From a virus: DNA of 28,567 nt. The notes beneath the pieces are model-generated. The model saw nothing but the letters and a program-made list of their open reading frames with translations. It was not told the DNA's origin and made no database searches. Below are positions 4,985 through 28,567 of this stretch, piece after piece (the stretch's first letter is position 1; each line of letters starts with the position of its first letter). Both the position numbers and the translations under genes were made by a program. Where the stretch lies: positions 1-28,567 of the IMG/VR virus record IMGVR_UViG_3300010938_000117; one strand, written 5' to 3'.

Positions 4985-5457
4985 CAAGACGGGAATTTAT
5001 TACTAAAAAAATAATCGGATATTTATCTAACATTAGCACTGCAAATGGTTATTTGACAAATGCAGGAACAATTGTTAAGCATTGGGATACACAAATAACT
5101 CCGAATCGTGCTGATGTTGATATGGATATTAATGTAAGAGATATATCGAATGAACATATTGAAAATCATATCGAGACTTTAAATTTTCAGTTTATTCTTA
5201 GCTGCAAAAATTCAGATAATTATTCTAAGTTGAATAAAATGATTTCTGATGTTCAGAAAGCTTTAACCGATGAAAATAATTTAATTGATTTACAAAGTTC
5301 TGTCAATTCAAGGGTACGGTGGAGAGCAATAGCAGAGGAGATTGAAAAGACAAGGGAAAATGATACAGAGATTGCTTATGCATCAGTAACGATGGCTCTG
5401 GATCACCGTTACACGGAAAAATTTGAACCAGATTTTACAAATTATCAGGAGATATAA
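4981..5457 (+). CDS. putative tail terminator protein (gpU-like position)
   Basis: 158 residues with an alpha/beta layout typical of tail terminators: an N-terminal helix ('REFITKKIIGYL'), a beta pair around 'DVDMDINVRDIS', 'FILSCKN', a helix ('YSKLNKMISDVQKAL'), and a final strand before 'DHRYTEKFEPDFTNYQ'. Such proteins cap the tail tube after it reaches the length set by the tape measure and then bind the head connector. Assignment rests on this pattern and on its place just before the tube gene, as in lambda U-V. Confidence 0.6.
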   Translation: MTRREFITKKIIGYLSNISTANGYLTNAGTIVKHWDTQITPNRADVDMDINVRDISNEHIENHIETLNFQFILSCKNSDNYSKLNKMISDVQKALTDENNLIDLQSSVNSRVRWRAIAEEIEKTRENDTEIAYASVTMALDHRYTEKFEPDFTNYQEI

Positions 5458-5460
5458 AAA

Positions 5461-5895
5461 ATGGCAATAGCATCAGGAACACCAATAACAGGTGGAAACG
5501 GCACACTAAAAACAGGCGCTTCCGGAGGAGCTTACGGTACTTTAACCGAATACAAAGTTAAGAATGTAAATCTGACAATATCAGGGGGTGCAATTGATGT
5601 AACTGACAGCGGAGATGGAAATTTCCGAAGTAAGGTACCGCACAAAAGAGCAGAATGGAACGGCAGCGCTGAAGCTATATTGAAAGCAGGTGACACTGAA
5701 CTTGCAGTAAATACTAAATACTCGCTTGCAGTTGTTGCTGAAGATACAAGCGGTGATGAAATTTACTGGCTTGGTGATGCAATCATAACTGAAATCGGAG
5801 TAGCAATCCCAATTGAAGGGGAGGATGCAGTAAGCAGATCAATTAATTTTGTCGGAGCAGGATCAATCGCTAAGGTTGATAACACTGCTTCTTAA
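5461..5895 (+). CDS. major tail tube protein
   Basis: 144 residues, almost all beta strands, with glycine-rich turns and 'YKVKNVNLTISGGAIDVTDSGDG', the strand and loop pattern typical of tail tube subunits ('DVTDSGDG' is a common signature). The product would polymerise into the hollow tail tube around the tape measure. The gene starts 3 nt after the tail terminator gene and is followed by the tail chaperone gene, as expected in siphophages. There is no sheath gene nearby, so the tail is probably non-contractile. Confidence 0.78.
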   Translation: MAIASGTPITGGNGTLKTGASGGAYGTLTEYKVKNVNLTISGGAIDVTDSGDGNFRSKVPHKRAEWNGSAEAILKAGDTELAVNTKYSLAVVAEDTSGDEIYWLGDAIITEIGVAIPIEGEDAVSRSINFVGAGSIAKVDNTAS

Positions 5896-5932
5896 TCAAC
5901 AAATCATTCACAAAACATTGAGGAGTAACATT

Positions 5933-6448
5933 ATGGAAAGAAAAACATTTTCTTTCAAACTCTTGGACGGCAAGGAGTATAAATTTGCCGAAAGAAATCG
6001 AGAAGATATTGATTTCGGTTATTTCCAAAACCGATTGAGGTCTGAACGATTTAAGTTTATTCAGGAAAATGTTATTGATGAAACAGATCGGCTTGCTTTA
6101 CTAAGACTGGAAGTTGATAAAATTTATTCTGATCAAGAAATTGGAATTTTTATTCTCAGCAATTTACAGGAACAGTTAAAGCTTGTTTATGCATCTTTCA
6201 AGGTGATGCAGCCAGAAATTCCTTTCGATGAGTTCAGCAAATTAGTAAATCAGAATTTGGTAAATGAATTAACAAAGCTGATATCCGATCTTGAAAAACC
6301 TGAAGAAATTTTTGACGATGTTATTACTAAAGAGCTTGGTATAACACAAAGCAAACTTGCAAGCTGGAATAAGGAACAGCCGGCATTGTATAAGTGGCTT
6401 AAGAAAGCCGGTAATATACAGCTGAAAAAAAAAGAAGTGAAGGGTTAA
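5933..6448 (+). CDS. tail assembly chaperone, short form (G-like)
   Basis: 171 residues from ATG 5933, chosen because AGGAG lies at 5921-5925; an upstream in-frame start at 5849 would overlap the tube gene and has no good site. The protein is mostly helical after an N-terminal beta part ('KTFSFKLLDGKEYKFAER'). Its place between tube and tape measure is that of lambda G and its relatives, which bind the tape measure and recruit tube subunits. The frame ends with three lysine codons in a run of nine A residues shortly before the stop, which is the likely slip site for the longer GT form. Confidence 0.78.
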   Translation: MERKTFSFKLLDGKEYKFAERNREDIDFGYFQNRLRSERFKFIQENVIDETDRLALLRLEVDKIYSDQEIGIFILSNLQEQLKLVYASFKVMQPEIPFDEFSKLVNQNLVNELTKLISDLEKPEEIFDDVITKELGITQSKLASWNKEQPALYKWLKKAGNIQLKKKEVKG

Positions 6449-6642
6449 GCCGGGAAGTTGCTGAAGCTTTGGTGCTTGCTACATATCCAGGAATTGATAT
6501 TGGGAAAATAACTCAAAGAAATTTTATGATGTTATTAGAGCAAGCACCAAACATTACATCATACAGATTAAACGGAAAATTAGAAAATGAAACTGAGCGG
6601 GACAGAAGAAAAAGATTGAAGGAACAATATCTGAATGGCTAA
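5933..6642 (+). CDS. tail assembly chaperone, -1 frameshifted long form (GT-like)
   Basis: A -1 slip on the A-run at 6425-6433 (A AAA AAA at 6427-6433, then G) joins residues 1-167 of the G-like protein to an open -1 frame from 6433 to the TAA at 6640-6642. This adds 69 residues, from RSEGLSREVAEALVLATYPG through to RKRLKEQYLNG. The added part has no start codon or ribosome binding site of its own, yet stays open and protein-like across the whole gap and ends 8 nt inside the tape measure gene. The same G/GT arrangement is conserved in tailed phages. Transcriptional slippage on nine A residues is an alternative route to the same product. Confidence 0.85.
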
Positions 6643-8305
6643 AGACAAAAAAATATTTTTAGCAGAGTTTGATGCAAATAATGAACCTTATCTGAAGAAG
6701 CTTAGTCAAGCGGAGCTTGCGACTAAGAAAGCTTCAGAGAGGATTCAGAGTTCTGTTAGTAAAATTGGTCAATCTTTTATAGCATTATCGGGGACTTTTG
6801 TTTCGCTCAGTTTTATAAAATCATCTATTGACGCTTATGTTGAAAGTGCCAAAAATCTTGAAAAGCTTGAAAGAGCTTTTGGGAAATTAAGTACTGCGAT
6901 GAAAATGTGGATTGACAAAATGGAAATGTCAACGAGATTTGGTGATGAAGAAATAACATCAGCGATGGCGAGAATCGGATTATATGTAAAAGAAGAAACT
7001 CTACTTAAAAAACTTACAGAGGCAACTATTGATTTTGCAGCTGCTAAAGATATGGATTTGACAGCTGCTGCAGAGTTAGTTACAAAGACAATCGTAAGCA
7101 GTAATAATGCGCTTGCACGGTACGGCATAAACATCGATACAACAAGCGATTCGCTATCAAAAGCAAATCAGATACTTGAACAATTTTCTGTGATGCAGGG
7201 AATGGGTAAACTATCAACTGACAGCGCTACGGATAGTCTCCTTGCACAAGAAAAAGCATTAGAAAATATGAAAGAACAATTAGGCGAAAACCTTTTGCCT
7301 ATATGGAGCACATTTCTTGAAACTCTTAATCAAATTATTTATTCATTCAAAGTATTGTTTCAAGCTATTTCTGGTAATCGTAATTTTTCTGATTTATTTG
7401 TTCCCATCAATGAATTGATTGCAAGAGATGAAAGACAAAAAGAAATTGGGCAAAAACTTTTGAATGAATTTAGGGGGCGCAATCCACTTGGCATAAGCAG
7501 TTTTGATCAGGTTAAACAGCAGATTGCAGGCGTTATACCTATTGTTGGGAGTGATAATGAAAAAGTTAAAACTGGTAAATCGAAAGAAGATAGAAAAAAG
7601 ATTTTTCCTCTTGATGCTTTAGGATTTGATTATACATTGCCTCCAAGGGAAACTAATTTTCCCACGATGGAAGAAGCAGCAGCAAATATGAAAGAAGTGT
7701 TTGCTAAGAATCTTGAAGATATAATGCTTGAAAAAACTACTGAGTGGCTTGAAGAAAGTGCAAATAATTTTCTTGACAGAATGAATCAGGTTAATTCAAT
7801 TGCTTATCAGTTTCAAAGTATTTTTAATATTGCTGCGGATTCTTTCGTTGGTAAATTGGTTTCAGGTGTTGATACTGTTGTATCAATTCTTAATTTATTA
7901 TCATCCATAAGTCAATTAGCAAGCGGACAGGCATTTTTCGGACTAACTTTTGCAAAGGGGGGAACAGTTATAAATAAAAACGGAAGATTAAGTATTGGTG
8001 AAATTCCTCGTTTTGCAGGTGGTGGAACTTTTATGGTTCCGCCGGGATACAGCGGAGACAATTATCCAATAATGGTTAAAAGTGGTGAGAGGGTTGATAT
8101 TACTCCAACTTCACAGGTTCCACATATCACTCAACTTCTGAGACAAATAAATAATTCGATTCAGGCAGCAACAAAAACAAATGTTAAAACAAGACAAATA
8201 CCTGTAGTAGTTAATCTGCAGCTTGATGGCAAATCACTTACTCGCACAAGCAAACACTTTGAAAATAATCTTGTAAGAGGCGGGCAGAATTTCGATGAGT
8301 TATAG
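6635..8305 (+). CDS. tape measure protein
   Basis: 556 residues. Such proteins fill the growing tail tube and set its length. Signs are the N-terminal 'LSQAELATKKASERIQSSV' coiled segment, hydrophobic 'SFIALSGTFVSLSFI', a long helical body with Ala-rich stretches ('DFAAAKDMDLTAAAELVTKT'), a hydrophobic segment near 415-440, and a C-terminal 'ARFAGGGTF...GERVDITP'-like region that is very common in phage tape measures (here from about residue 470). It is short for the family; at roughly 0.15 nm per residue it would suggest a tail near 80 nm. It overlaps the GT frame upstream and the next gene downstream (8295-8305). Confidence 0.88.
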   Translation: MAKDKKIFLAEFDANNEPYLKKLSQAELATKKASERIQSSVSKIGQSFIALSGTFVSLSFIKSSIDAYVESAKNLEKLERAFGKLSTAMKMWIDKMEMSTRFGDEEITSAMARIGLYVKEETLLKKLTEATIDFAAAKDMDLTAAAELVTKTIVSSNNALARYGINIDTTSDSLSKANQILEQFSVMQGMGKLSTDSATDSLLAQEKALENMKEQLGENLLPIWSTFLETLNQIIYSFKVLFQAISGNRNFSDLFVPINELIARDERQKEIGQKLLNEFRGRNPLGISSFDQVKQQIAGVIPIVGSDNEKVKTGKSKEDRKKIFPLDALGFDYTLPPRETNFPTMEEAAANMKEVFAKNLEDIMLEKTTEWLEESANNFLDRMNQVNSIAYQFQSIFNIAADSFVGKLVSGVDTVVSILNLLSSISQLASGQAFFGLTFAKGGTVINKNGRLSIGEIPRFAGGGTFMVPPGYSGDNYPIMVKSGERVDITPTSQVPHITQLLRQINNSIQAATKTNVKTRQIPVVVNLQLDGKSLTRTSKHFENNLVRGGQNFDEL

Positions 8306-9716
8306 TATTAAAATAGGTGGTATTGATAAGTCAAATTATGTTGTAGATATAGATAATATATCTATAATCAGAAAAAACAGAACAGGAGAGCCGGTATCTG
8401 ATATAATAAAAATTAAAATTGTTAAAAATTATGCAGGTTACATTACAGAGGGAACTGAAGTAGAAATATTTGAAGGTAATGTGCCTATTTGGTGGGGCTA
8501 TGTAACAAGATTAAAAGATGATCTTGTTTATAAAACAATTGATGTTGCACCGCTTGAATTTAGGCTTGCTTCTTATCCGCTTTATTCAACTGCTTTGCAT
8601 AATAAAATTATAGATGTTGCAAACTGGGGAGGTGCAAAAACTTTTTCGCCTTCAAATGTTAACACTACATCAGACAGAATTACAATAACTTCTCACGGAT
8701 TTACTTCCGGTGATGTTGTGGCATTAAAATCAACAGGGACATTGCCTTCGCCTTTACAAACTAATGTGCAATATTCGGTATCTGTGATTGATGCAAATAC
8801 AATTGAATTGATGGATCCGCCTGTTGGTGCGCCTGGTTCAGGAATAGTTGATTTAATAACTCAAGGTTCTGGCACGCATAGTATAACAAATAATTTAGAC
8901 TTAAATAAATTTTGCAGATATGATAATGTTTATCTGCCTAATGTAAGTATCGAATGGCTTTTGAAATCGATGTTTGCAGTGATTGGCGCAACTTTAACTG
9001 TTGAAAATCCTCTTTATCCATTTGAAAGCAGAAGTTTGAGTTTGAGTAATGTTGCATTGGATTATAATATGATGAAAGTAATCGGATTGCCTTATGCTAC
9101 ATCTACTCCGGATGAAACTGATAAACCGCAAATACTAAATTGCCTGCAGTTATTTCAAAGATTAGTTCAGATTTTCAAAATGACTTTTGTTACCTACGGA
9201 AGTTTAGGCAGTAAGAATTATGCGCTTTTAAGAACAGCTTCTTATTCAAAGTTTGATTTTAATAATCTTTTAGTTGAAGATTATGAAACGGAAGATATTT
9301 TTAACGATGCTGATTCAGTTTATGGCGTTGAGATGCTGGCATCAACAATTGGGGGGACCTGTAGGAATTATTATAATTCCACAACAAAAACTGCATTAGT
9401 CGAAGGTGCGAGCATCAGTTCATCTAATCCGCAAAATCTTTATCCGTTCCCAAGTAATCTGAAAATATTGGTAAGATATGCAAGCGGAAGCGGTCATCCA
9501 ACTTATCATATAGAATTTGATACTTCGCCAATACCGACTGAAAAATATATACCAATTACATCTTGTATTGATGGTTATTATCAAGCGATTGAAAATGATG
9601 TACAGTATGAGAGCATTACAGCAAAAGCAGTTAATTATCTTACAATGATTAACAAAGCGCCTGTTGTCTATTGTGATATTAATCTTAAAAACAGACAAGT
9701 GGAGATTTACCAATGA
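8295..9716 (+). CDS. tail tip / hub-like protein
   Basis: 473 residues. The N-terminus ('SIKIGGIDKSNYVVDIDNISIIR' split by strands, then 'EGTEVEIFEGNVPIWWGYV') has the beta-rich pattern of tail hub or distal tail proteins that form the ring at the tail tip. A separate insert at about residues 112-200 ('TSHGFTSGDVVALKSTG' then 'YSVSVIDANTIELM') looks like an added small beta domain of the kind often found in phage adhesins. The C-terminal half carries a further alpha/beta part. It overlaps the tape measure gene by 11 nt and the next gene by 4 nt (ATGA). The exact family is not identified. Confidence 0.6.
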   Translation: MSYSIKIGGIDKSNYVVDIDNISIIRKNRTGEPVSDIIKIKIVKNYAGYITEGTEVEIFEGNVPIWWGYVTRLKDDLVYKTIDVAPLEFRLASYPLYSTALHNKIIDVANWGGAKTFSPSNVNTTSDRITITSHGFTSGDVVALKSTGTLPSPLQTNVQYSVSVIDANTIELMDPPVGAPGSGIVDLITQGSGTHSITNNLDLNKFCRYDNVYLPNVSIEWLLKSMFAVIGATLTVENPLYPFESRSLSLSNVALDYNMMKVIGLPYATSTPDETDKPQILNCLQLFQRLVQIFKMTFVTYGSLGSKNYALLRTASYSKFDFNNLLVEDYETEDIFNDADSVYGVEMLASTIGGTCRNYYNSTTKTALVEGASISSSNPQNLYPFPSNLKILVRYASGSGHPTYHIEFDTSPIPTEKYIPITSCIDGYYQAIENDVQYESITAKAVNYLTMINKAPVVYCDINLKNRQVEIYQ

Positions 9717-22792: not shown

Positions 22793-22856
22793 AAAAAAAA
22801 ATTTTTTTAAAAAAAAATAAATACCCCTTGACAAATGATTTTTATTTTTATAGTTT
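22793..22856 (+). promoter_or_regulatory. early rightward promoter with A/T-tract upstream element
   Basis: TTGACA at 22828-22833 is followed 17 nt later by TAGTTT at 22851-22856 (TATAGT, 15 nt apart, is an alternative). Long A- and T-tracts at 22793-22820 lie directly upstream and could act as an UP element or bend the DNA. Operators lie just downstream. Confidence 0.6.
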
Positions 22857-22871
22857 AAATGTAGATAATTT

Positions 22872-22886
22872 ATAGATATTATCTAT
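22872..22886. promoter_or_regulatory. operator O1
   Basis: ATAGATATTATCTAT, an inverted repeat with 6-nt arms and a 3-nt centre. An extra half-site TAGATAATT lies just to the left at 22862-22870. Differs at one base from 411-425. Confidence 0.65.
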
Positions 22887-22906
22887 CGATTATCTCGGAA
22901 TCACGA

Positions 22907-22919
22907 TAGATAAAATCTA
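22907..22919. promoter_or_regulatory. operator O2
   Basis: TAGATAAAATCTA, with the same TAGAT/ATCTA arms and 3-nt centre as O1, 34 nt further right. Confidence 0.6.
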
Positions 22920-22924
22920 AAAAT

Positions 22925-22963
22925 ATCAGTCCTTAAAATATAGGACTGATTATTACTTTTTTT
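22925..22963 (+). terminator. hairpin with T-run in the early leader
   Basis: ATCAGTCCT and AGGACTGAT form a perfect 9-bp stem with an 8-nt loop (22925-22950), followed by TATTAC and seven or more T residues. It lies between operators O2 and O3 and before the first early gene, so it could be an attenuator or an insulator between divergent promoters. Confidence 0.65.
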
Positions 22964-22971
22964 CAAAATTA

Positions 22972-22986
22972 TAGATAAATTATCTA
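22972..22986. promoter_or_regulatory. operator O3 abutting the first early gene
   Basis: TAGATAAATTATCTA is a 15-nt palindrome (7-nt arms around one base), ending 5 nt before the ATG at 22992. It occupies the place where a ribosome binding site would normally lie. Confidence 0.65.
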
Positions 22987-22991
22987 CAAAA

Positions 22992-24302: not shown

Positions 24303-24533
24303 ATGAATAGTTTGATTGATGATCTGAAAGTCATCATTGAAGATGGAGACAAAGCAATGAGTGTTTATTTATTCCTTAAATATCGTAATCTTTTTGATGA
24401 AGAAATGCTTAGAGCTTATAATATCAAGAGAAAACAGGAATTGTGCAATCACACACTTCCAGACGGAAAATCTGCAATGATTTATATTGCCGGAGCAGGC
24501 ACTTGCCAGATTTGTGGTTGGGACGATTTTTAA
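24303..24533 (+). CDS. small protein with a zinc-finger-like C-terminus
   Basis: 76 residues. After a helical N-terminus, 'LCNHTLPDG' and 'GTCQICGWD' provide one Cys-x-His and one Cys-x-x-Cys pair, enough for a zinc site. GGAGG precedes the ATG by 6 nt. Similar small zinc-ribbon-like proteins are frequent in phage early regions. Function unknown. Confidence 0.6.
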   Translation: MNSLIDDLKVIIEDGDKAMSVYLFLKYRNLFDEEMLRAYNIKRKQELCNHTLPDGKSAMIYIAGAGTCQICGWDDF

Positions 24534-24549
24534 TATTGGGGGTGCAGTG

Positions 24550-25089
24550 ATGAAAAATTCTAAATATGCAGAATTGCTGACAAAATATAAAAACAGAGAA
24601 ATGACCCGTGAAACAATTTTGATGACTTATGAAATTTCTAAAGAAAGTTTGCGCAAGCTAATTGATTATTACAACATACCATTTTGGGATCTGCAGAAAA
24701 ACTATAATGATTTAGATGTGAATGAAATAAAAAATTTACTTGCGAAAGGTTACTCGAAGTATAAAATAGCAGCAATACTTAAATGCAGCTATGATAAAAT
24801 AAAAAATTTTTGCAGGCATAATGGAATTAAAACTATTGACGGCAGATTGAAAAGAAAAAATCCTGAAAGAGATAAAGAAATATTGAATTTATACAAGCAA
24901 GGAATTTCTATAAGAGAGATTGCGAATAAGTTGAGAATAACTTATCAATCTGTTTATGAAGTACTCAGAAAGTTGGGTGCATTTCAGAAGATAAGAAAAG
25001 TTAAAGTTGTTAGAGAAAGCGGAAAATATTATCATCCTAAAAGAGACAAAAGTCCGTATGCACAAATGTTCTACACTTATAATAATTAA
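24550..25089 (+). CDS. protein with repeated resolvase-type HTH motifs
   Basis: 179 residues from ATG 24550; the longer frame from 24487 overlaps the zinc-finger gene. GGGGGTG lies upstream. Three HTH-like units follow one another: 'TRETILMTYEISKESLRKLIDYY' (about 20-40), 'VNEIKNLLAKGYSKYKIAAIL' (about 57-85) and 'DKEILNLYKQGISIREIANKL' (about 115-145). They resemble the C-terminal DNA-binding domains of resolvases and Mor/sigma-like regulators. It could be the activator of later genes or an origin-binding protein. Confident as DNA-binding, not as to role. Confidence 0.65.
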   Translation: MKNSKYAELLTKYKNREMTRETILMTYEISKESLRKLIDYYNIPFWDLQKNYNDLDVNEIKNLLAKGYSKYKIAAILKCSYDKIKNFCRHNGIKTIDGRLKRKNPERDKEILNLYKQGISIREIANKLRITYQSVYEVLRKLGAFQKIRKVKVVRESGKYYHPKRDKSPYAQMFYTYNN

Positions 25090-25244: not shown

Positions 25245-26390
25245 GTGGATAAAGTAGCCTTTATAAAACAAAATTTGAAGCTCACGGAATTACTTAGAAT
25301 GCTTGCTATCCATCCAAACAAATCAGGTTTTATCAAAAGCATTTATAAGGATGAGAAAACTCCATCGCTTAAAATCTATCCTGAGAGCGACAGTTACTAT
25401 TGTTTCGCAACTTCACAGGGGGGTGATATTATTCAATTCTACAGCGATTTTTACAATCTGTCTGTAGATAAAAGCATAGAAGAACTTTATAATTTAGCCG
25501 GCGGTGGAAGAAATATCCAGATTCATTCACGGAAAATTCCTGCTGCAGCAAAGCAAAAAGAAAGAGATTTTAAGAAGTGCCTTACTAAAGACGAGCTTTA
25601 TGCTTATGAAGAAATTCTGGCTTTAACTAATGAGCATAGTGCTTTCAGAGAAATTCAATTACTTCGACTCAACAATAATAAAAAGATTTTTAACGAACTC
25701 TATAATTATTGCCGGAAATATTCTAAAGCAGATTCTTTTCGTAATTACTTGCATAGTCATCGTTGCTATGATGATAATGCAATTGATAAATTCAAACTCT
25801 TTTACATCGGTGATTATTTTGAAGTTAATAATCATTTGAAAAAAACATTTCAGATGTCCGAATTGAAAGCATCCGGAGTGATGAATGAAAATGGAAATTT
25901 AATTTTTGCAAAACATCGGTTAATCATTCCATATCTCCATAACGAAGAAATAGTTTATTTAAGAGCAAGATTTTTTGATAACGGAAATCCAGTCACAGAA
26001 GGAATTAAATATATAGGACTGAGAAACGATGCGCTAAATGTAAATACAGCAAAGCGTCTTTTTAATTCTGATGTGCTTGGCAAAATGGCTCCGTCAGATC
26101 AGCTTTACATTGTTGAGGGTGAATTGGATGCAATATTACTTGACAATTCAGATGTCTTTGCGGTTGCTATTCCTGGCGCTGGAAATATGCCATCGGATAA
26201 ATGGTTACACAAAATGAAACAATTCCGGGTAAATATTATGGTTGACTCGGATGAAGCAGGAAAGAAGTTAAAGGAACGGCTTATTCAGAAGTTAAAAGAA
26301 TTATCTATAAGCTACAACGAAATTATAATTGACGGTTATAAAGACATAACCGATTACTGCTTGGGCAAAATTTATAAAACAAGTATTTGA
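25245..26390 (+). CDS. Toprim primase with a degenerate CHC2 zinc finger
   Basis: 381 residues from GTG 25245. The N-terminus aligns by eye with the DnaG zinc-binding domain ('DEKTPSLKIYPES...YYCFATSQGGDIIQFY'), but of the four ligands only Cys53 remains: Ser32 and Lys35 replace Cys and His, and Thr56 replaces the last Cys. The Toprim core is complete: 'YIVEGELDAILL' (Glu291) and 'IMVDSDEAGKK' (Asp334, Asp336). It would make primers for phage DNA synthesis. It stands directly before the helicase gene, as expected for a phage replication pair. Confidence 0.85.
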   Translation: MDKVAFIKQNLKLTELLRMLAIHPNKSGFIKSIYKDEKTPSLKIYPESDSYYCFATSQGGDIIQFYSDFYNLSVDKSIEELYNLAGGGRNIQIHSRKIPAAAKQKERDFKKCLTKDELYAYEEILALTNEHSAFREIQLLRLNNNKKIFNELYNYCRKYSKADSFRNYLHSHRCYDDNAIDKFKLFYIGDYFEVNNHLKKTFQMSELKASGVMNENGNLIFAKHRLIIPYLHNEEIVYLRARFFDNGNPVTEGIKYIGLRNDALNVNTAKRLFNSDVLGKMAPSDQLYIVEGELDAILLDNSDVFAVAIPGAGNMPSDKWLHKMKQFRVNIMVDSDEAGKKLKERLIQKLKELSISYNEIIIDGYKDITDYCLGKIYKTSI

Positions 26391-26402
26391 GAAATTAATA
26401 TA

Positions 26403-27722
26403 ATGCCTAAAATATTATCCGATAAATTGAAAGAAGCAACGGAGATCAACGAGCAAATAGAAATCACGCCTCAAATTAAAAAGCTAAAAGAAGCAATAGA
26501 ATATATAAATTCGAAATATGAGTTTCTTTTTAATGTTGTAACTGCTGAGCTTGAATTCAGGGAAAAAGGCGAAAAAGATTTCCGTTTCTTTCAGGATAGA
26601 GATTCCCGCAATATCAAAGTGGAAATGGCTTTGAGGGGACTTAAGCTCTCTCAAGATGATTTGCGTGATTTACTTTATTCAAAATATGTAAGTAAACACT
26701 TTCATCCATTCCAAGATTATTTTGATAAAATACCAAAATATGATGGCAAGTTTGAATATAAAGATAAAAAGATTGTAAAGCTTATAAGTGGTCGGGATTA
26801 CATAAAAGAATTTTGTGATCAGGTCTATCTAAAAAACGAAGCGCTTAGAACTTATTTTGTTGAGGGCTTTAGAAAGTGGTTTGTTGGATTAGTGGTTTCA
26901 ATATATGATGACGAAATAAGTATGTATAAAATAAACCAAATATGTTTAATACTTGTAGGTAAGCAATCAAGATACAAAACTACATTTTTTGAAAGTATTG
27001 TACCAAAGCATTTGCGCAACAATTATTTTTATTCAGGCAGTTTTAACTTTGGCGATAAAGATAACGAGAAACGAATGGCAACGAAGATATTGATGTCTAT
27101 GGAAGAAATGGCATCATATAATAAAACAGATATCGAAATAGTTAAAGCAAAAATCACTCAGCCAAGAATAGTTGTTCGTCCTGCTTTCTTCAAGGCTGAT
27201 GTAAGATTAAAAAGGCGTGTAAGTTTTGCAGGAACACAAAACAACGTTGAGTTCCTGAAGGATGATACCGGCTCAAGAAGATTTCTAATTATTGATATTG
27301 AAGACATTAAAATAGATGATAATTTTCCGATTGATAAAATGTATGCTCAAGGTTTGCAACATTATAGAGATGGCTTTCAGTATTGGTTTGATAGATCCGA
27401 AATAGAACAACTCGAACTTATTAACGAACAATTCCAACTTAACTCTTTTGAGAGTGAGCTTATACTAACAAATTTTGAAATTCCCGAGGAAGGGTATAAT
27501 GGTCCAATGCTTAGATATTACACCGCAACGGATATTGCAGTCAAGTTAAGTAAAGATAATAATATCAATGTCAATAATACAGTGAGAAAAAATATTGGGG
27601 CAGCAATGCAGCGATATGGCTTTAAGAAGATATCAAAACGCTTAAACGGTAAACCAAGTTATGTTTGGGTTGTTAAAGAAAAAATAAGTACGGAGATTAA
27701 ATTAAATGATGATGTTATATAG
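26403..27722 (+). CDS. VirE-type replication helicase/ATPase
   Basis: 439 residues, of the virulence-associated-E (VirE) type P-loop proteins that serve as replicative helicases in many phages and islands. The Walker A reads GKQSRYKTT (186-194), with Tyr191 in place of the usual Gly. 'ILMSMEEM' (Glu234, Glu235) is Walker B. 'FAGTQNNVEFLKDDTGSRRFLII' (about 275-297) contains the sensor Asn and arginine finger typical of the family. The first 150 residues are a mixed domain, perhaps primase-interacting. It is followed by the inverted-repeat array, so origin binding nearby is plausible. Confidence 0.82.
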   Translation: MPKILSDKLKEATEINEQIEITPQIKKLKEAIEYINSKYEFLFNVVTAELEFREKGEKDFRFFQDRDSRNIKVEMALRGLKLSQDDLRDLLYSKYVSKHFHPFQDYFDKIPKYDGKFEYKDKKIVKLISGRDYIKEFCDQVYLKNEALRTYFVEGFRKWFVGLVVSIYDDEISMYKINQICLILVGKQSRYKTTFFESIVPKHLRNNYFYSGSFNFGDKDNEKRMATKILMSMEEMASYNKTDIEIVKAKITQPRIVVRPAFFKADVRLKRRVSFAGTQNNVEFLKDDTGSRRFLIIDIEDIKIDDNFPIDKMYAQGLQHYRDGFQYWFDRSEIEQLELINEQFQLNSFESELILTNFEIPEEGYNGPMLRYYTATDIAVKLSKDNNINVNNTVRKNIGAAMQRYGFKKISKRLNGKPSYVWVVKEKISTEIKLNDDVI

Positions 27723-27730
27723 TTTAACTG

Positions 27731-27930
27731 TTGTAGTAAGTAGTAACTCATATCTCTCTCTATATGTAGGGATTTATAAAATAATGTATATAACTGCATA
27801 CAACTTAACAACTTACGGAGAGTTGTCAAAATCAGTTACTACTTACTACAAATGCAAAAAGTTGCGAAATTTTATTAAAAACAAAACTTTTTGTAGTAAG
27901 TGTCGTAACTACAGTCATATCTTACTACAA
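27731..27930. repeat. array of inverted TTGTAGTAAG repeats
   Basis: Four copies in alternating orientation: TTGTAGTAAGTAGTAACT at 27731-27748, its perfect 18-nt inverse at 27834-27851, TTGTAGTAAGT followed by gtc and GTAACT at 27891-27910, and the inverse CTTACTACAA at 27921-27930. Inside the first pair two smaller hairpins occur: CATAT/ATATG (27749-27766) and ACAACT/AGTTGT (27808-27826). The array lies between helicase and gpZ-like genes, where no convincing gene is found. It could be a replication origin, a regulator-binding array or a structured RNA. Confidence 0.8.
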
Positions 27931-27944
27931 CTGAAAGGAGACAA

Positions 27945-28526
27945 ATGAAAAATATTAACACCAACAAGATTAGTTATCTTTTTGGCTCTCACAAGAAAGA
28001 TAGTAACAAAATAATCAGGATGGCTGTAAATAGAGCAGCGAATGATGCAATATCTGCAGCTCGTAAAAAGATCAGGGATGACTGGAATATTCCACTTAAA
28101 GAATTAACAGATAAAAATATTGTAAAGTTTTTTCCTGCCAGGGGAGACAAGATAACAGCATCTTTTGAAATAAAATATCGTGGTGTTCCGCTCATTAAGT
28201 ACAAAATTAAACCTAGGAGAGTAATTAAAAAAAGGACAAGAGAGCAATTAACGGTTGAAGAGCAAAAAGGTAAGCCAAGAAAAATTAAGGGTGCATTCAT
28301 TGCTCAAACTAAACTAGGAATGAATGTTTATATGCGAACATCAAAATCAAGACCGATTAAGATAAGATCTAATCCAAGAGTATGGTTTATTTTGCCTATT
28401 GCTAAGTTGTACGGTCCTAGTGCAATGCAATTGTATTCGGCGAAACAAACTAAGGATGTAATTAAAAACAAATACTTTGTACAATATAAAAAAGAATATG
28501 ATAGACTTCTAAAAACAAAAATTTGA
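27945..28526 (+). CDS. minor tail protein Z-like
   Basis: 193 residues against 192 in lambda gpZ. The pattern agrees along the length: 'RMAVNRAANDAISAARKKIRDD' near the start (gpZ: AMAINRVASSAIS...), 'GVPLIKYKIKPRRVIKK' in the middle, 'KGAFIAQTKLGMNVYMR' and 'PIKIRSNP' later, and a C-terminal 'LYGPSAMQLY' with a helix. gpZ completes the tail before joining to the head. AAAGGAG precedes the ATG. In lambda, Z lies between FII and U; here it lies after the replication genes, probably just before the terminase genes. Confidence 0.75.
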   Translation: MKNINTNKISYLFGSHKKDSNKIIRMAVNRAANDAISAARKKIRDDWNIPLKELTDKNIVKFFPARGDKITASFEIKYRGVPLIKYKIKPRRVIKKRTREQLTVEEQKGKPRKIKGAFIAQTKLGMNVYMRTSKSRPIKIRSNPRVWFILPIAKLYGPSAMQLYSAKQTKDVIKNKYFVQYKKEYDRLLKTKI

Positions 28527-28567
28527 AAGGTACTTCCTGAAGATACTGTTACGACTGCGACGCTACT

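Follow-up and report, generated by a model that had tools for sequence, protein, structure and literature searches.

The closest described systems are the rep-ori modules of SaPIs and PICIs, such as SaPIbov1, SaPI1 and EcCICFT073, in which the origin lies directly 3' of the gene for the initiator helicase. The C-terminal domain of SaPI Rep recognises iterons directly 3' of the rep gene, apparently with two hexamers (PMC7581432). PICI origins have an A+T-rich region between two iteron sets 3' of rep, and a cloned PICI rep-ori replicates (PMC6092414). Isolated from the rest of the protein, the C-terminal domain of SCCmec Cch2 binds repeats that lie downstream of the Cch2 gene (PMC7581432). The record of Streptococcus phage Sfi21 holds an annotated 302-bp non-coding 'origin of replication' (PER element) directly behind the 3' end of a gene for a D5-type helicase (domains PF03288 and PF19263), where the arm GCTTTAGTTACTTAGTTAC is mirrored over a 71-nt spacer with 89% A+T. 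Arrays of the Sfi21 type can serve as decoy origins and thereby stop a phage from replicating (PMC6356513). In phage P4, crr is found immediately 3' of the alpha (primase-helicase) gene, and its short type 1 repeats occur on both strands.

A comparable array is present in the window, the whole stretch of 28,567 nucleotides of an uncultured phage that was analysed. An earlier sequence-only reading had described it as an array of inverted repeats with primase, helicase and gpZ-like genes as neighbours, and domain matches identify all three. The features of the region are as follows.

24487-25089: repeated-HTH protein (HTH domains, PF02796, 2e-11)
25245-26390, plus strand: separate DnaG-type primase gene with a CHC2 zinc ribbon and a Toprim domain (PF01807, Zn_ribbon_DnaG, 9.6e-9; PF13155, Toprim_2, 5e-8)
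26403-27722, plus strand: VapE-family SF3-like helicase gene, 439 aa, proposed replication initiator (PF05272, 8e-34; phrog_1313 DNA helicase, 5e-56)
27447-27680, plus strand: coding region of the predicted C-terminal winged-helix domain (residues ~349-426), proposed to bind iterons (AlphaFold2)
27731-27748, plus strand: left arm, two tandem GTAGTAA iterons (27733-27739 and 27740-27746)
27752-27830, no strand: A+T-rich spacer, 71% A+T, proposed melting region
27834-27851, minus strand: right arm, two tandem iterons (27836-27842 and 27843-27849)
27893-27900, plus strand: additional iteron GTAGTAAG (motif count)
27906-27912, minus strand: degenerate iteron, TAACTAC on the plus strand
27921-27928, minus strand: additional iteron GTAGTAAG, just 5' of the gpZ ribosome binding site
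27945-28526, plus strand: gpZ-like minor tail or tail-completion gene, a neighbour outside the proposed origin (PF06763, 4.8e-9; phrog_27, 3e-19)

The array starts 8 nt past the helicase stop codon. The perfect inverted pair that had been reported is exact, with arms TTGTAGTAAGTAGTAACT and AGTTACTACTTACTACAA of 18 nt each and 85 nt between them. It is the top long-spaced inverted repeat of the window with a score of 18, and the next unrelated one scores 11. Each arm consists of GTAGTAA twice in tandem, a repeat with a period of 7 nt (run of 7; p 0.01 from shuffles). The core GTAGTAAG occurs four times within the 200-nt region and once elsewhere in the window, against 0.33 copies expected window-wide, and a count of five was reached in none of 100 shuffles. 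Both of the shorter copies noted ahead of the gpZ gene are found, with a degenerate third one between them. The description of the array as alternating is correct as to the array but not as to strict alternation, the order of orientations being ++ -- + - -. Among all 79-nt stretches across the window, 12% have a lower stability than the spacer. Two inner hairpins, also noted earlier, are seen in the RNA fold of the array (z-score -4.7); most of the fold energy comes from the 18-bp pair itself.

It had been stated that the region has no convincing gene, and the 80-aa ORF that runs across the array (27706-27948) has no match in 11 relatives. Rfam and tRNA scans returned no match, and there is no DnaA-like box within 400 nt of the array. 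The promoter scan was at chance level, with 4 matches versus 2.9 expected; at 27805-27832 there is a weak promoter-like match, and no terminator-like site was found. GC skew, which had been proposed as a check, shows no switch across the window and is uninformative because nearly all genes are on one strand.

The nearest solved relative of the helicase is PDB 7pds (profile sequence match, E 1.6e-32). The AlphaFold2 model of the helicase has a mean pLDDT of 86.6, and a Foldseek search with this model gave 7pds, 'PriRep1 with dsDNA', as the top match (1.4e-17). At the C-terminus the model has helices at residues 349-357, 375-386 and 392-404 and strands at 370-373, 408-414 and 417-426 (block pLDDT 81-91). 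This helix-strand-helix-helix-strand-strand order at 349-426 is read as a predicted winged helix.

The window array resembles the SaPI and PICI rep-ori in several respects. It is located directly 3' of the helicase gene, its short tandem iterons form two sets (27733-27746 and 27836-27849) around the A+T-rich region, and the VapE/SF3-type helicase is related by sequence and structure to PriRep1 and has a predicted C-terminal DNA-binding domain. It differs in that the window has a primase gene of its own, separate from the helicase gene, its iteron is GTAGTAAG, and it belongs to an ordinary tailed phage, which encodes a portal (PF05136, 4e-83), a capsid (PF05065, 8e-31), a muramidase and tail proteins. 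A PICI satellite is ruled out by these genes, since PICIs lack structural genes and need a helper phage. The Sfi21 origin is likewise non-coding and 3' of a helicase gene and has mirrored tandem iterons around an A+T-rich spacer, however, the Sfi21 helicase belongs to the Pox_D5/DUF5906 branch and not to PF05272, and the iteron is AGTAACTA. P4 likewise has short repeats on both strands directly behind its helicase gene, but it has a fused primase and helicase, separate ori and crr, and the iteron GGTGAACA. The window locus is not a P4 alpha/crr origin, as its primase and helicase genes are separate and its iteron is not GGTGAACA. Cch2 of SCCmec, with its putative origin, is similar in the helicase C-terminal domain and in the repeats in the intergenic region 3' of the helicase's own gene; it differs in having few 5-nt direct-repeat iterons, inverted repeats that are dispensable for binding, and another primase. 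An iteron plasmid origin of the RepA/pi type does not fit, as DnaA-like boxes are absent within 400 nt and the proposed initiator is a helicase. The sequence-only reading had held that the array fits no standard feature class; helicase-adjacent iteron origins are in fact known from SaPIs/PICIs, Sfi21 and P4.

Conservation of the motif in related phages had been named as a further check, and the motif is conserved. In the viral collection the helicase most similar to that of the window is the one of L001 (67% identity), and this locus has about 11 copies of GTAGTAA in the same place, between the helicase and the gpZ-like gene; other helicase loci have the motif too. The viral collection was also scanned for GTAGTAAGTAGTAA without regard to genes, which returned at least 120 stretches. 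Among the stretches listed, four or more clustered copies are found in L001/L073, L085, L008, L042, L109 and L047, and a VapE-type helicase gene ends at the array in L001/L073, L085, L008, L042 and L109. L047, with a short tandem TTACTAC run and no helicase, was treated as unrelated. L041, which has a VapE-type helicase, carries a variant array, and L002, a 35% helicase relative, has a single motif copy only. In the set collected by helicase homology (76 viral loci, 80 genome loci, the window and L001, 158 in all), the 700 nt downstream of the helicase hold 90 copies of GT[AG]GTA[AG]G in total and the 700 nt upstream a single one, raw counts that are not independent because some fetches overlap the same contigs (e.g. 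L001/L126). The order of orientations is +++-++---+-- in L001/L126 and +++-+---++ in L125. A homologue of the primase is present in L001, L125, L127 and L128. A 36% helicase relative (L201/L127) is located in an Ignavibacteriales genome, where the downstream region is without a GTAGTA array; this relative is a hint of the host group of the window phage.

The layout recurs at helicase loci with other repeats. After similar downstream regions were removed, 115 loci were left, named phages included, and a strong inverted pair was defined by a score of at least 12 and a spacer of 40-180 within 600 nt downstream. Such pairs are present downstream in 45 of 115 loci, upstream in 1 of 107 and in none of 115 Markov-randomised sequences (Mann-Whitney p 6e-14). 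Of the 26 strongest cases, 20 have arms made of tandem repeats with a period of 7-10, and the spacers are richer in A+T than their flanks in 41 of the 45 loci (mean 72% vs 62%, p 6e-12). When over-represented 8-mers were used to find iterons with no prior motif, many loci were seen to have an iteron of their own downstream of the helicase that is absent upstream. Iteron types among these helicases include TGTAGTAAG and GGTTGTAAG, and the following, among others, were found as downstream 8-mers.

L183, L193 and L170: iteron GGTTGTAA
L163: iteron GGTTGTCA
L141, L149, L150, L153 and L156: iteron AGGTAACA or AGGTTACA
L161 and L152: iteron GGGTAAGA
L128: iteron TGTAGTTA
L138: iteron CCTGTAAC

The iteron sequence varies with lineage while the layout recurs. 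A partial Mantel comparison of iteron similarity with the C-terminal domain, in which the ATPase domain served as the control, gave r 0.08 and p 0.10 and thus no clear covariation over and above general relatedness. Bacteroidota genome loci, including L205, L231, L243 and L252, have VapE genes with GGGTAAG or GGTGTAAG arrays and spacers of ~120-170 nt; as these arrays are in bacterial genome contigs, the design also occurs in integrated elements. Among cultured phages, Staphylococcus phage vB_SauS_320 (L288) has nine copies of GATGCAAC and Paenibacillus phage Bloomfield (L291) nine copies of CTGCAACA 3' of the vapE gene, and these repeats are candidate origins. A TATAT-type stretch beside a GA/CT-rich run is present in the spacers of the window (27752-27775), L131 and Sfi21; it may be a common melting element, or else it is due to chance.

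It is very probable that 27731-27930 is the replication origin of the phage, because the motif is conserved, the array is 3' of the helicase gene and there is published precedent. The origin or iteron array was one of three interpretations offered by the sequence-only reading, and it is the one that is strongly supported. Several observations count against it. More than half of the helicase loci have no strong inverted pair within 600 nt, the window spacer is only moderately A+T-rich, GC skew has no switch (with nearly all genes on one strand), and the iterons show no clear covariation with the C-terminal domain. By analogy with the related systems named above, the VapE-family helicase would act as the initiator at the adjacent origin, its C-terminal winged helix reading the short iterons GTAGTAAG. 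The opposed tandem pairs that flank the spacer may place two helicase hexamers face to face; the spacer would melt and the hexamers would load. The DnaG-type primase would then prime bidirectional synthesis by the host polymerase.

Other roles for the array have to be weighed against a replication origin. The array could be mainly an operator that controls the late operon headed by the gpZ-like gene, with its iterons bound by a regulator of the phage or by the helicase itself, which would then be autoregulating. The position of the last iteron directly ahead of the gpZ ribosome binding site is consistent with this, as is the weak promoter-like match in the spacer, and origins bound by initiators often regulate their neighbours too. 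However, the array follows the helicase gene whichever gene comes downstream. Homology to the gpZ-like gene is found only in L128 (by BLAST) and L001 (by position) and not in L125, L131 or L162, the promoter matches are at chance level, and an operator accounts neither for tandem pairs mirrored over an A+T-rich spacer nor for the Sfi21 origin. A main role as an operator is unlikely; regulation of the late operon may be a secondary role of the array.

The low fold z-score would suit a structured RNA or a processing or termination element formed by the 18-bp inverted pair, and a folded RNA was another of the interpretations offered earlier. The fold energy derives from the pair itself, however, and the scans returned no Rfam match and no terminator-like site. 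Copy number and the order of orientations differ among relatives while the motif is kept, therefore there is no common hairpin and the array does not belong to a structured RNA family. An RNA role is thus very unlikely. The remaining interpretation was a binding site for the repeated-HTH protein (the protein at 24550), weighed here as a role unconnected to replication. This protein does have HTH domains and a weak partial homologue in L001, but none was found within the few kb of flank at L125, L131, L128, L144, L162, L165 and L181, which have the same or nearly the same iteron, and this role is highly improbable. As for chance or mutational simple repeats, the A+T-richness of the window might favour them, however, no shuffle matched the motif count and the conservation in place among relatives refutes them; they can be set aside with near certainty.

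A helicase-adjacent iteron origin is an already known function, and its wide spread is the less expected part. A partial literature search found no paper that joins VapE phage helicases to iteron origins, and the breadth of the layout may already be known to specialists. The two-sided layout has been described as unique to one class of phage satellites, whereas here it is found in an ordinary tailed phage, which weakens the satellite-only argument and suggests that satellites and phages share one pool of helicase-origin modules. It seems somewhat more probable than otherwise that the VapE/D5-type helicase genes of phages, satellites and integrated elements have one common 3' origin design, in which mirrored pairs of tandem iterons (period 7-9) surround an A+T-rich spacer and the iteron switches by lineage. 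If so, the common design would be no hallmark of PICIs, and the sequences of many uncultured phages could reveal their origins and which initiators have a specificity in common. For the window phage, the putative origin and its initiator were placed from sequence alone, and the simple rule of an array 3' of the helicase yielded comparable arrays at dozens of other loci.

Comparison with L001 also bears on the completeness of the record. In L001 the gpZ-like gene is followed by the terminase genes, and these by the HTH/portal block (gpZ end at 5444, terminase at 5516-7949, HTH at 8678). By this comparison, ~3 kb with the terminase genes are absent between the end (28526-28567) and the start (1-126) of the window. 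The record is therefore incomplete at its ends and represents a nearly complete, permuted phage genome. A separate cluster of inverted repeats is located at 22813-22988 (22860-22878/22970-22988 and 22868-22888/22904-22924), with the divergent HTH/integrase genes on one side and the early operon on the other, and resembles the operator region of a lysogeny switch.
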